From: Exiguobacterium sp. FSL W8-0210
GTDB lineage: Bacteria; Bacillota; Bacilli; Exiguobacteriales; Exiguobacteriaceae
DNA: 64,000 nt
Assembly (NCBI RefSeq): GCF_038006045.1
Contig: NZ_JBBOUK010000001.1
Coordinates: forward strand, 2,893,001-2,957,000
Direction of reading: 5' to 3'
Shown here piece by piece: positions 5,491-32,445 of the stretch. Each line of letters begins with the position of its first letter. Position 1 is the first letter of the stretch. The notes under the pieces are model-generated. The model made no database searches. It was not told the DNA's origin and worked only from the letters and a program-made list of their open reading frames with translations. Position numbers and translations under genes: made by a program.

Positions 5491-6552
5491 TAATGACGGT
5501 TTGTCAAATTAAGCGCAACACTTCTTCGGAAAAGACCTCGTATGCAGTTTTCCAATCCAAACACTTTCGTGGTCGATTGTTGATTCTAGAAAGTGCGTGA
5601 TCTAATTCTGTCTTGTTGATCATTCCGAAGTTGGTTCCCTTTGGGAAGAACTCACGGAGAAGACCATTGGCATTCTCATTGCTGCCACGTTGCCATGAAG
5701 AATAGGGGTCCGCGAAGTACATCGGGATACCAAGAGAGTCCTGTATCCGTTCGTGACAGCTGAACTCCTTACCGCGATCCGTCGTCATGGTTTGAAACGT
5801 TCCCGATGGGAAAGAAGAATAAAGCGTTCGGATGGCGTGTTCCATCGAGTGAGAAGAACGATCGACCATCGGTAGTACGATATAGAACCGACTTTTACGT
5901 TCGATGAATGTCGCGACACATGCCTTTGTCTGTCCTCGTCCTGATACAACAGTATCCAACTCCCAGTGCCCGAACGTCTCTCGACCCCGGACGTCCGACG
6001 GACGTTTACTGATCGGAAGCCCGATGTTGAAGCGACCTCTTGTCTCACGTGGCTTTTGGCGCTTTCCTTTTTGTCGTAAAACGCCTAAATCGCTCTTGAT
6101 GAATCCTTTATATATCCATCGATAGATTGTACTGTACGATGGTCCCTGTTTGTGAAAGAGCCGTCTTGCGATCTGTTCGGGAGACCATGTCTCTCGCAGT
6201 TTCGAAAGGATACGTGAGCCAAGCGAAGCGCTGAACAGCGTGCGTGCTCCACAATTCTTTTTTTGCATCTCATAACGCCGCCCAGCGTTGATCGCATTGT
6301 AGGAAGGATTCCGTTTTAGCTCACGTGAAATCGTAGACGGCTGTCGTCCGAGATGCTGAGCGATCTTTCGCATTGAAAATCCAAGCTCTAGATAAGTTTC
6401 TATTTTGACTCTTTCTGATGTGGTAAGATGAACATAGCTCATAACGAATCCTCCGTTGAATTTTGTGTGGTAACTCTATTCTACACGAGGTCGTTATGGG
6501 TTTTTTTGTGTTTTCAGCTAGGTGTTGCACTTAATATTACAATTCGTCTAAT
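5491..6552 (-). mobile_element. IS30-family insertion sequence, copy 1, with target duplications
   Basis: The element proper runs 5495-6548 (1054 bp), bounded by imperfect inverted repeats that begin GACG and share TTGT, ATTAAG and GCAACAC. It is flanked by TAAT on both sides (5491-5494 and 6549-6552), a 4-bp target duplication. It carries one transposase gene. A second copy of the same length and identical transposase lies at 47960-49013 in the opposite orientation. The end next to the GNAT gene carries an outward TTGACA box. Confidence 0.9.
5504..6442 (-). CDS. IS30-family transposase
   Basis: 312 residues. An N-terminal helix-turn-helix (residues about 1-45, with FSMRKIAQHLGRQPSTISREL) binds the ends, and an rve/DDE domain follows: Asp163 in ELDTVV, Asp222 in TTDRGKEF and Glu256 in SNENANG. 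The motif order and the DDE spacing are typical of IS30 transposases, and the gene is intact. Its start is ATG after GGAGG. The stop lies 9 bases from the element end, so readthrough continues into the GNAT gene. Confidence 0.95.
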   Translation of the reverse strand: MSYVHLTTSERVKIETYLELGFSMRKIAQHLGRQPSTISRELKRNPSYNAINAGRRYEMQKKNCGARTLFSASLGSRILSKLRETWSPEQIARRLFHKQGPSYSTIYRWIYKGFIKSDLGVLRQKGKRQKPRETRGRFNIGLPISKRPSDVRGRETFGHWELDTVVSGRGQTKACVATFIERKSRFYIVLPMVDRSSHSMEHAIRTLYSSFPSGTFQTMTTDRGKEFSCHERIQDSLGIPMYFADPYSSWQRGSNENANGLLREFFPKGTNFGMINKTELDHALSRINNRPRKCLDWKTAYEVFSEEVLRLI

Positions 6553-6622: not shown

Positions 6623-7240
6623 TCACTGCGTGACTTTTTGTACGACTGGTGCCGGTACGATGACAGGCTCCCGTGTCATGACAGCAACGACACGTCCAGC
6701 GATCGCTACAGCTAGTAACGTATATAACGTTAAGCTGAGCGGCAGATAGACGAGTGAGATGACTAACACGATGGCGTCGAGTCCGAACAAGATTGTTCCG
6801 ATCGATAGACCTGTCAGTTTGCTGAGTCCCATCGATAGCAGGTCGTCCCCACCTGTTGCCGCTCCACTTTTCAAAACAAGTCCGAGACCATATCCGGTCA
6901 CGATTCCGCTAGCAATCGCTGCGCTGAGCGTCGCTGGCCAAGCCTGTTCTGGAAAGTGGAACAAATCAAGTCGGTGCCACATTTCATAAAAGACTGATAA
7001 CGCACCTGCTGAAAGTAACGCTTCACTGACAAAGCGTTTTCCTTTGAAATACAAAGCACCAATGAAAAATGGAATATCGAGCACGATCATCGAAATTGAA
7101 GGATTGATATCAAAAAAGTATCGACCTAGCAACGATAATCCGATGAAGCCGCCTTCTGCTAATCCGAACTGTTCATTCAATGTGTAGTAACCAAACGCCA
7201 TGATGAGCGTTCCGGTTAAGATGGTTGCGATTCGTTTCAT
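6623..7240 (-). CDS. YitT/DUF161-family membrane protein without the DUF2179 tail
   Basis: 205 residues with five to six membrane helices. The stretch SGAATGGDDLLSMGLSKL followed by SIGTILFGLDA is the conserved core of YitT/YxkD proteins. Usual YitT proteins are about 280 residues with a cytosolic DUF2179 domain; this one ends soon after the last helix, so it is the short form. Function is unknown in the family; some members sit behind guanidine riboswitches and are thought to be transporters. The ribosome site (GGGAGAGG, 10 bases from ATG) is held in a hairpin at the end of a 200-base structured leader. Confidence 0.8.
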   Translation of the reverse strand: MKRIATILTGTLIMAFGYYTLNEQFGLAEGGFIGLSLLGRYFFDINPSISMIVLDIPFFIGALYFKGKRFVSEALLSAGALSVFYEMWHRLDLFHFPEQAWPATLSAAIASGIVTGYGLGLVLKSGAATGGDDLLSMGLSKLTGLSIGTILFGLDAIVLVISLVYLPLSLTLYTLLAVAIAGRVVAVMTREPVIVPAPVVQKVTQ

Positions 7241-7452
7241 GTTTTATTGTCCTCTCCCGTTTACATCGTGGGAGAGGTTTTATACGTCCCGTTTGGGTAT
7301 TCATCTATTTTCGCTCTCCCTGATTTTTATAAGCCATTACCGTCTGTTCGTTATGACCGGTACTGCTAAAAATCAGGTAAGCTGAATAGATGATTGGTCC
7401 TCTCGGTATCCATCGGTTTCCACCCTTTCATTAAAAATCTACTTTCATTATA
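7241..7452 (-). promoter_or_regulatory. Candidate translational riboswitch leader and promoter of the YitT-type gene
   Basis: On the minus strand a TATAAT box (plus 7447-7452) would start RNA near 7440, giving a leader of about 200 bases. Visible pairings: CATCTATT/AATAGATG as a closing stem; CCTGATTTTTA/TAAAAATCAGG, 11 perfect pairs; TACCG/CGGTA inside it. Just before the start codon CCTCTCCC (plus 7270-7277) pairs with GGGAGAGG (7251-7258), which is the ribosome site. The same CTCTCCC can instead pair with GGGAGAG (plus 7314-7320), and GAGAGGAC occurs again at about 7398-7405. The two pairings exclude each other. I could not assign a known riboswitch class. Confidence 0.6.
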
Positions 7453-7563
7453 ACCCGAATTTCAGTAACTAAAACAGTATTACGCATTCTTCACATAATC
7501 CAAACAGTTTTGCTCACTCATTCACAATTTAGACAAGATTATGCTCAACATTGAACAAACTAC

Positions 7564-7624
7564 TTGAAAACGATCTTGTGAAGGATTACACTAAGTATAT
7601 CAAATGAATGTGATATTTATCACA
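7564..7624 (+). promoter_or_regulatory. nox promoter with a Rex/Fnr-type palindrome
   Basis: TTGAAA (7564-7569), 17 bases, TACACT (7587-7592) form a plausible SigA promoter. The palindrome TGTGATATTTATCACA at 7609-7624 fits the Firmicutes Rex pattern and equally the Fnr/Crp-type TGTGA-N6-TCACA. Placed just downstream of the likely start site it would repress. Rex control of NADH oxidases by the NADH/NAD ratio is known; that Rex rather than Fnr binds here is inference. Confidence 0.6.
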
Positions 7625-7650
7625 AACAAAACACAAAGGAGACTTTACCC

Positions 7651-9000
7651 ATGAAAATAGCAGTCATCGGATGTACACACGCAGGAACAGCAGCAGTCAA
7701 AGAACTCGCTTCACAACAAGACGTCGAGATCACCGTTTATGAGCGGAATGACAATGTATCGTTTCTCTCTTGTGGAATCGCGCTTCACGTCGGTGGTGTC
7801 GTCAAACATGCGGAATCACTTTTCTACTCATCACCAAGTGAACTCGCTGAACTCGGCGCTGAGATGCGTCTGAAACATGATGTGCTTGAAATCGATAGTG
7901 AACGCCAAACGATCGTTGCGAAAAACCTCATGACTGGTGAAGTCGTTCACGATACGTACGATAAACTCATCATGACGACAGGATCATGGCCAATCATTCC
8001 GATGCTTCCTGGCATCGAGTTGAATCAAATCGAGCTTTGTAAAAACTATCACCACGCTCAAACAATCATTGAAAAAGCGACAGATGCACAACGGATCACC
8101 GTCGTTGGTGCAGGATATATTGGTGCTGAACTCGTTGAAGCGTTTGAAGCATACGGAAAAGACGTCACGTTCATCGACAGTGCGGATCGCATTCTCAACA
8201 AATACCTCGACCGCTCATTCACTGACGTCATCGAACGTGAATTGACAGACCGCGGTATTCGCCTCGAACTCGGACAAACCGTCCAAAGCTTCAAAGGAGA
8301 AAACGGTGCTGTGACACACGTCGTGACAGACAAAGGAACGTTCGAAACGGATCTCGTCATTCTCTGTGTCGGTTTCCGCCCAAGTACGGAACTCTTAAAA
8401 GGTCAAGTCGACATGCTACCGAACGGTGCCATCATCGTTGACGATTACATGCGGACGAGCAACCCGAACATCTTTGCTGCTGGTGACAGCTGTGCTGTCT
8501 ATTACAATCCAGCTCGGACACATGCCTATATCCCGCTTGCAACAAATGCTGTCCGGATGGGAACATTGATCGGTAAAAACTTACGCGCACCAAAGATTCG
8601 TTACCAAGGAACACAAGGCACATCAGGTCTTCGCCTATATGATCTGAACATTGCGTCGACTGGTTTGACAGAAGAAGCGGCACCCTTGTTCGGACTTGAA
8701 GTGAGCAGCACGACGGTCACAGATGCGTATCGCCCAGAGTTCATGCCAACAGCAGAAGACGTCCAATTGAAACTCGTCTTCGAGACGGAAACTCATCGTG
8801 TCGTCGGTGCACAAATTATCTCGAAAGTGGATTTGACACAAGCGATGAACACACTTTCTGTCGCGATTCAAAATGATATGACACTTGAAGAGCTCGCTTT
8901 CGTCGACTTCTTCTTCCAACCGCACTACAACAAACCTTGGAACTTGCTGAACCAAGCAGCTCTACAAGCGATGAACGAGCGCCAATCTGCTCGTGTTTAA
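7651..9000 (+). CDS. nox: NADH oxidase (probably water-forming), CoA-disulfide reductase family
   Basis: 449 residues. An N-terminal FAD-binding GCTHAGTAA, the single redox cysteine in SFLSCGIAL (Cys41), a second nucleotide site GAGYIGAEL for NADH, and the FAD-contact ATG-like segment NIFAAGDSCAV are all present, with the C-terminal dimerisation domain. A single conserved cysteine at this place is typical of Nox2 enzymes that reduce oxygen to water and of CoA-disulfide reductases, which I cannot separate by eye. It would reoxidise NADH in the cytoplasm. ATG follows AAAGGAG by 9 bases. The Rex-like operator supports a redox-balance role. Confidence 0.85.
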   Translation: MKIAVIGCTHAGTAAVKELASQQDVEITVYERNDNVSFLSCGIALHVGGVVKHAESLFYSSPSELAELGAEMRLKHDVLEIDSERQTIVAKNLMTGEVVHDTYDKLIMTTGSWPIIPMLPGIELNQIELCKNYHHAQTIIEKATDAQRITVVGAGYIGAELVEAFEAYGKDVTFIDSADRILNKYLDRSFTDVIERELTDRGIRLELGQTVQSFKGENGAVTHVVTDKGTFETDLVILCVGFRPSTELLKGQVDMLPNGAIIVDDYMRTSNPNIFAAGDSCAVYYNPARTHAYIPLATNAVRMGTLIGKNLRAPKIRYQGTQGTSGLRLYDLNIASTGLTEEAAPLFGLEVSSTTVTDAYRPEFMPTAEDVQLKLVFETETHRVVGAQIISKVDLTQAMNTLSVAIQNDMTLEELAFVDFFFQPHYNKPWNLLNQAALQAMNERQSARV

Positions 9001-32192: not shown

Positions 32193-32445
32193 AAAAAACG
32201 CCCCTTGCGCCACGCGCAAAGAGACGGAATGACCGCGGTACCACTCTTCTTGGTGTCATTTTGACACCCACCTTGTTCGGGGATAACGGGGTTCCCCCGG
32301 CTACGCCTCTTCCATCAGGAATCGGGCAGCGTCTCAGAAGTGCGTTTCACGATCGGTTCGTCCTCAGGCTTCCACCATTCCCTGATTCGCTAGTTGACGA
32401 AAATCAACCGTTACTCTCTTCATCATCGACTATATTCGATATCTT
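32193..32445 (-). promoter_or_regulatory. T-box riboswitch of argS
   Basis: On the minus strand the leader shows an AGAGAGTAACGG stem I base, the GGTGGAAGCC distal loop, a candidate Arg specifier CGC followed by A (plus 32342-32344), the T-box GTGGTACCGCGG (plus 32233-32244) and a terminator whose GC stem ends in T6 (plus 32193-32227). Uncharged tRNA-Arg would stabilise the antiterminator. The specifier assignment is tentative; the T-box itself is clear. Confidence 0.9.

Follow-up and report, generated by a model that had tools for sequence, protein, structure and literature searches.

Translational attenuators of the erm type (ermC, ermA, ermB) comprise a short open reading frame (ORF) led by its own Shine–Dalgarno (SD) sequence, RNA segments that pair either as 1:2 together with 3:4 or as 2:3, and a main gene whose SD is masked. 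In tnaC and speFL arrest takes place where a short peptide ends, with the ribosome at its stop codon, and both systems act mainly on transcription termination. YitT-type genes, in turn, are among the targets of the ykkC/yxkD guanidine-I riboswitch. The leader of ermB has been described as holding two leader peptides (PMC8274638), and in the toiL–topAI system of E. coli a ribosome stalled on an upstream ORF (uORF) opens the structure lying over the ribosome-binding site of the next gene (PMC12121999).

The leader described here precedes a yitT gene of Exiguobacterium sp. FSL W8-0210 and was found in a stretch of 64,000 nucleotides, referred to below as the window. It is, in our judgement, likely to be a translational attenuator controlled by a leader peptide and following the logic of erm and cat, in which yitT would be unmasked by a ribosome that is kept on the UAG of the first uORF, uORF1. 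As far as the genome sequences tell, this arrangement precedes YitT of the present type in every genome found.

The yitT gene and the organisation of its leader

The yitT gene (positions 6623–7240, minus strand) codes for a membrane protein of 205 amino acids, in which PF02588 (YitT_membrane, E = 8.5e-35) is the sole Pfam family at E ≤ 0.001; the C-terminal DUF2179 domain is absent from the protein by the same search. All 19 genomes searched in the genus have an orthologue, with 85–100% identity to it, and the genome from which the window derives carries seven YitT-family genes, i.e., the gene of the window and the paralogues L001–L006. The AlphaFold2 model of YitT has a mean pLDDT of 85.9, and since the PDB yielded no relative, either in a structure search with this model (best E 1.1) or in a sequence search with the protein, it offers no clue to YitT function. 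The proteins encoded next to YitT, ten in number, taken from eight of ten regions and including one without an assigned family, share no family. A YitT-family gene is altered in mutants of M. pneumoniae selected with macrolides (PMC10240068), which may give a weak and distant hint at a link with drugs acting on the ribosome, and this is kept out of the evidence; PMC4944035 and PMC6016940 served as annotation context only. Directly downstream of yitT lies a gene for an IS30-family transposase (5504–6442, minus strand), and the sole Rfam match at gathering score in the window is a T-box leader at 32217–32435 of the minus strand (108.7 bits).

On the minus strand the leader of yitT occupies about 7440–7241; its features are collected in Table 1. 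The predicted energy of its fold is −61 kcal/mol, against −37.2 ± 3.6 kcal/mol in 200 dinucleotide shuffles, none of which reaches it (z −6.6). The stems enclosing each other, given in the initial annotation as having 8, 11 and 5 pairs, are present and are counted here as 9 + 4 + 10–13 + 4 pairs. The last hairpin, in which CCTCTCCC pairs with GGGAGAGG over the ribosome-binding site of yitT, was likewise rightly described; its 3' arm ends 10 nt upstream of the yitT ATG. The alternative pairing of the same CTCTCCC with GGGAGAG also holds, with 7/7 pairs at 7320–7314, and the clade of the window, with 16 distinct leaders, keeps the same seven pairs in 15 of them; the sixteenth, L026, has a 9-pair version of 2:3. 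The claim that GGGAGAGG is the only ribosome-binding site has to be abandoned, as two further SD–ATG pairs occur in the leader, one at 7429–7411 belonging to uORF1 and the other at 7320–7302 belonging to a second frame, uORF2. The second copy, GAGAGGAC, is indeed found further upstream, at 7404–7397 (about 7398–7405 in the initial annotation), but not as a mimic of the ribosome-binding site: its letters are the Glu-Arg-Thr codons of uORF1. Read on the plus strand, the region 7251–7277 is a hairpin followed by TTTT and scores as terminator-like, and no plus-strand gene is seen to end at it.

Table 1. Features of the yitT leader in the window
Feature	Positions	Strand	Pairing, basis or conservation
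TATAAT, probable −10 element of the promoter for the leader	7447..7452	minus	sequence; kept in 18/19 aligned clade genomes, not in L026
SD1 of uORF1, GAAAGGGTGG	7420..7429	minus	at most 1–2 changes in 19/19 clade leaders
uORF1, leader peptide MDTERTNHLFSLPDF, stop TAG then C	7366..7413	minus	
GAGAGGAC, uORF1 codons GAG AGG AC- (Glu-Arg-Thr)	7397..7404	minus	
P1 5' arm, within uORF1	7385..7393	minus	pairs with 7301–7309
Segment 1 = P2 5' arm, end of uORF1 including its stop	7365..7377	minus	pairs with 7319–7328 and 7332–7334
Apical stem-loop	7338..7362	minus	7359–7362 with 7338–7341
Segment 2 = P2 3' arm and GGGAGAG (7320–7314), SD2 of uORF2	7314..7328	minus	
P1 3' arm, carries the uORF2 start codon	7301..7309	minus	
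uORF2, MNTQTGRIKPLPRC..., 43 codons and stop	7173..7304	minus	+1 frame to yitT, overlaps the yitT start
Segment 3, CCTCTCCC, anti-SD	7270..7277	minus	pairs with segment 4 or segment 2
Segment 4, GGGAGAGG, SD3 of yitT	7251..7258	minus	sequence and folding

uORF1 and its relatives in Bacilli

uORF1, which is SD-led, consists of 15 codons and a stop, with constant length, in all 37 Exiguobacterium orthologue leaders, derived from 19 genomes of g1 (the clade of the window, a genus) and 18 of g2 (a sister genus of the same family). The peptide has the form MDTER(T/I)(N/D/M)HLF(S/A/G)LPDF in g1 and MDTER(T/A)WPLFQLPDF in g2, and from the peptide form in L067 and L079 it follows that E. aurantiacum and E. 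profundum should be counted in g2. Codons that differ by a single base among the 18 distinct uORF1 sequences do so synonymously in 13 of 18 cases, the expected fraction being 0.21, and the swaps include the leucine codons TTA, TTG, CTT and CTG; the other two frames give 6/24 and 4/25 synonymous differences. This codon signature points to selection on the peptide that uORF1 encodes. The codons GAG AGG are invariant in 18/18 distinct sequences, though other Glu and Arg codons would be possible, and the region of GAGAGGAC that holds them could form 6–7 bp with segment 3.

When the genome_contigs collection (84,980 species) was scanned for the form seen in Exiguobacterium, 24 stretches matched, all from Exiguobacterium and all 48 nt long, and YitT lies downstream of 23 of them; in the case of L074, where YitT was not found after uORF1, the match lies near the end of the available DNA. 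Among viral contigs none has an exact match. At the paralogue loci (six from the genome of the window and eleven of the closest paralogue elsewhere, the start of L001 being poorly placed) a simple scan of the 260 nt upstream found an SD-led uORF in none of 17.

NCBI places Exiguobacterium in the class Bacilli, and the uORF has counterparts in other families of this class. A comparison of the window's YitT protein with 299 genomes of the class gave 73 with YitT at E ≤ 1e-36, of which 27 belong to Exiguobacterium and 46 to other families, and a uORF in one version or the other is present in all 73. In the nearest YitT orthologues of the other families the related uORF has the form ...RTIWKR(Y/F)DLSY(T/I) before its stop. 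Half of the 46 leaders from outside Exiguobacterium, i.e., 23, were chosen by similarity of YitT (44–52% identity), 20 of them picked blind to the leaders and three taken automatically, and an SD-led uORF ending in ...WKR(Y/F/C)DLS(Y/D)(T/I) is located at the same place in 23/23. Examples of leader peptides from outside Exiguobacterium are MLPRRTIWKRFDLSDT, MCPRRTIPQRTIWKRYDLSYT, MRPHRTIWKRFDLSYI and MVPYRSVWKRYDLSYT, each followed by a stop. Since the pattern used for the search permits synonymous letters, a coding test over all the non-Exiguobacterium leaders is biased, and it was set aside in favour of the 23 protein-chosen loci; their 15 distinct uORFs show 21/28 synonymous differences, against 0/26 and 6/28 in the other frames. 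When the peptides are aligned at their ends, they share with the g2 form of Exiguobacterium a Trp (−9 from the stop), a residue that is mostly aromatic (−6) and a Leu (−4), and from these three aligned residues and the position of the frame the WKR-type and Exiguobacterium uORFs are likely to be of common descent.

A pattern search of 398 genomes of the class, allowing up to two mismatches, matched 80 genomes, among them 46/46 of the non-Exiguobacterium genomes with YitT at E ≤ 1e-36. Eleven matches were rejected as false. They had appeared as a second copy of the uORF in g2, and consist of a single 31-base stretch that is identical in the 11 genomes and has two mismatches to the pattern. In L132 an ORF resembling the ATPase of an ABC transporter, presumably oppD-like, begins with this stretch, and no YitT accompanies it in L132 or L136; the other nine matches were judged by their identical letters. 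After this removal YitT lies downstream on the same strand in 69/69 pattern genomes, as confirmed by script in 55 and by comparison of coordinates in 14. The pattern occurs in 0/382 genomes of other classes of the phylum, and a phylum-wide draw of 398 genomes gave six matches, all among its 16 genomes of this class. In L135 (G374) two tandem WKR-type uORFs, with stops 157 and 263 nt before one YitT gene, look as if the attenuator had been duplicated.

UAG followed by C would be expected to act as a slow stop. The stop of uORF1 is TAG followed by C in 60/60 protein-chosen leaders (37/37 from Exiguobacterium and 23/23 others); TAG is the stop in 0/37 of the mechanical ORFs of at least 250 amino acids in the window. 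The next hairpin starts +1 to +5 nt past the stop of the uORF in 42/42 folded non-Exiguobacterium leaders (L097 was left out of this count), and in Exiguobacterium its first arm takes in the last codons of uORF1 together with the stop. Judging from these alignments and folds, the stop keeps its place with respect to the hairpin, and since the arm spans or abuts the stop, a ribosome standing there would cover segment 1.

Conservation of the peptide across several families would also be expected of a small functional protein acting in trans, in which case the RNA fold would be a separate, simple control of translation. This is extremely improbable for a product of about 15–21 residues that is encoded in cis just before YitT in each of the 69 genomes and whose stop is placed 1–5 nt before a hairpin; moreover, two 21-residue forms match nothing in Pfam or NCBIfam, although with queries of this length the evidence is weak. 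A short SD-led uORF followed by exclusive hairpins is, in turn, the layout of an attenuator answering amino-acid or tRNA starvation, where uORF1 would gauge the supply of Trp, Leu or Phe codons. We regard it as very unlikely, as the peptides contain no run of a single amino acid and most of their residues are conserved, Asn, Asp or Met stands in g1 where g2 and the other families have Trp, and the minus strand of the leader has no terminator-like site in a simple scan, which scored such sites on the plus strand only.

The initial annotation saw in the leader a translational riboswitch, possibly of a new class. On this reading the leader would be a ligand-binding aptamer and the ORF incidental. 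The strength of the fold and the conservation of the internal loops within the clade speak for it, but the region in question turns out to be largely uORF1 with its SD, its fixed UAG and its selected peptide. The coding signature of uORF1 is seen in two lineages, the leader RNA differs between families whereas the end of the peptide and its stop persist, and it is by this stop that the following hairpin is positioned. No riboswitch of Rfam matches the region 7100–7660 even at E ≤ 5, and none of 16 leader loci has an Rfam match at E ≤ 0.1. The suggestion of a link to guanidine and the ykkC class finds no support in Rfam at the leader nor, with matches taken at the gathering threshold, at the six YitT paralogues of the genome. 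The chance that we allow to an aptamer is very slight.

Competing folds and access to the ribosome-binding sites

The leader comprises four segments pairing either as 1:2 together with 3:4, with the SD of yitT masked, or as 2:3, with this SD exposed. In terms of complementarity both folds are encoded in the leaders, and the exclusive pairings are kept in relatives, which supports the earlier view of a switch-like leader governing access to the ribosome-binding site of yitT. The covariation expected among orthologue leaders was seen for 1:2 and 2:3 in 20 leaders of another family, but it is weak inside Exiguobacterium.

The 20 leaders (alignment A4) represent one genus of family f22 and 20 of its 22 distinct leaders, L110 and L125 being left out. 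For the 13 pairs of 1:2, 95.8% of cells are standard and the covariation is 0.154 versus 0.099 in shuffles, and for the 20 pairs of 2:3, 95.5% of cells are paired and the covariation is 0.222 versus 0.173, with 0/500 shuffles reaching either value, although relatedness among the leaders can inflate this comparison. The 3:4 helix is paired in 89.6% of cells and displays no covariation. Slid versions of the structures are paired in 17–57% of cells, a comparison in which the counted structures are favoured since they were drawn from one member of the set, as is also the case for Exiguobacterium. Changes on both sides, three pairs in each structure, are not beyond chance, being reached by 50/500 shuffles for 1:2 and 188/500 for 2:3. 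In the Exiguobacterium set of 33 distinct leaders 83% of cells are paired for the 1:2 stems, but the structure (0.111) is outscored by two slid registers (0.122 and 0.159) and has fewer pair types than the shuffles. The longest ungapped 3:4 helix (8–11 pairs) exceeds that of 2:3 (6–7 pairs) in 32 of these 33 leaders, so 2:3 cannot win on stability alone.

Accessibility of the SD sequences was predicted with a ribosome placed on the stop of uORF1. In the window the predicted cost of opening falls from 10.8 to 1.6 kcal/mol for SD2 and from 9.8 to 4.2 kcal/mol for SD3 of yitT, each matched by 0/40 5'-shuffles. SD2 is predicted to open more easily with the stop covered in 33/33 Exiguobacterium leaders, and in 6/6 of those tested its masking by uORF1 goes beyond 5'-shuffles (0/40 each); release of SD2 is the strongest effect of a covered stop that the folding predicts in Exiguobacterium. 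Elsewhere the masking of SD2 is mixed, being reached by 0 to 34 of 40 shuffles in nine leaders, including 34/40 in L100, 26/40 in L083 and 19/40 in L080. The SD of yitT becomes easier to open in 34/41 non-Exiguobacterium leaders and is unchanged or harder to open in seven, L097 (start misplaced) and L135 (tandem uORFs) having been dropped from the SD-opening counts. Masking of this SD in the resting fold, as predicted by folding, is weak in some relatives (2–4 kcal/mol); it is reached by 0–5 of 40 5'-shuffles in six Exiguobacterium leaders and by 0–10 of 40 shuffles in 10 of 12 leaders from outside the group, and is matched by 38/40 in L083 and 35/40 in L102.

uORF2, which SD2 precedes, is in the +1 frame to yitT in 19/19 leaders of the window's clade and in 18/18 of g2. 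The +1-frame start codon is located 61, 64 or 70 nt before yitT in Exiguobacterium, and in 33/43 non-Exiguobacterium leaders an ATG is found exactly 85 nt upstream of yitT. The uORF2 peptide shows no sign of selection (synonymous differences 2/18 and 52/197, near chance), and it is possible that this frame serves as a road along which ribosomes would pass through segment 3. In the 61 nt that immediately precede yitT in g2 (L038–L055), the part between the start of uORF2 and the SD is almost invariant, third codon positions included, and the pairings described above explain only part of this near-invariance.

A fold that is predicted to open when a ribosome is near the end of uORF1, and a UAG-C present in every leader examined, would also fit a general sensor of translation stress with no dedicated ligand, in which any slowing at the UAG-C of uORF1 would turn yitT on. 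There is a precedent in toiL, which answers five classes of ribosome-targeting antibiotics (PMC12121999). Nevertheless, the strong conservation at the level of the peptide demands more than a generic pause site, and we hold a sensor of this kind to be rather unlikely.

A model of yitT control and its relation to known systems

In the peptide-controlled attenuator preferred here we infer the arrest of the ribosome, its place, the inducer, the translation of uORF2 and induction as the sign of the response. In the resting state ribosomes would read uORF1, terminate at UAG-C and depart, after which the RNA would fold as 1:2 together with 3:4; the codons of uORF1 would then cover SD2, segment 3 would cover the SD of yitT, and yitT would be off. 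If the nascent peptide, probably with the help of a small molecule that binds the ribosome, stalls translation at or close to the stop of uORF1, the ribosome would cover segment 1 and break 1:2, and segment 2 would be freed. In the other families the free segment 2 would take segment 3 to form 2:3, and the SD of yitT would be directly exposed. In Exiguobacterium SD2 would be released, and translation of uORF2 through segment 3 would melt the last hairpin, with 2:3 as a weaker, perhaps co-transcriptional, alternative.

The putative arrest peptide has the consensus ...RTIWKR(Y/F)DLSY(T/I)-UAG-C and a divergent form in Exiguobacterium, MDTER...LFxLPDF-UAG-C. A further proposal, which we put forward tentatively and consider somewhat doubtful, is that these peptides constitute a new arrest-peptide family of Bacilli that senses a ribosome-binding small molecule, holds ribosomes at termination and controls a YitT transporter by a two-tier RNA switch, the substrate of YitT being either the molecule itself or something that arises from the damage it causes. 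Membrane proteins of the YitT/DUF161 type are common in bacteria and their function is obscure; the agent that stalls ribosomes on uORF1 would point to the substrate of YitT or to the stress in which it takes part. If true, the model adds a family of peptides, possibly of a termination-arrest type, with natural variants available for structural work on the sensing of nascent chains.

In the literature searched, from which most subscription papers were absent, neither the leader-peptide strings nor a description of the YitT leader was found. The type of mechanism is known, while the peptide, the target and the geometry of the stop appear to be undescribed. Where YitT-type targets of ykkC/yxkD have the guanidine-I riboswitch, the present leader has no Rfam match and carries a uORF in its place. 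With tnaC and speFL it would have in common the arrest at a stop codon, as proposed for uORF1, yet it displays signals of translational control only. The likeness to toiL–topAI, which is one of description only, extends over a different organism and a different target, and the YitT leader peptide is selected across families. With the erm type the leader shares a short SD-led ORF, four segments that could pair in two ways and a main-gene SD that is predicted to be masked, and the presence of a second ORF recalls ermB. The YitT leader differs from erm in the peptide and in the gene downstream, which is not a known resistance gene, and it is distinguished by an invariant UAG-C and by a stop that abuts the first hairpin.
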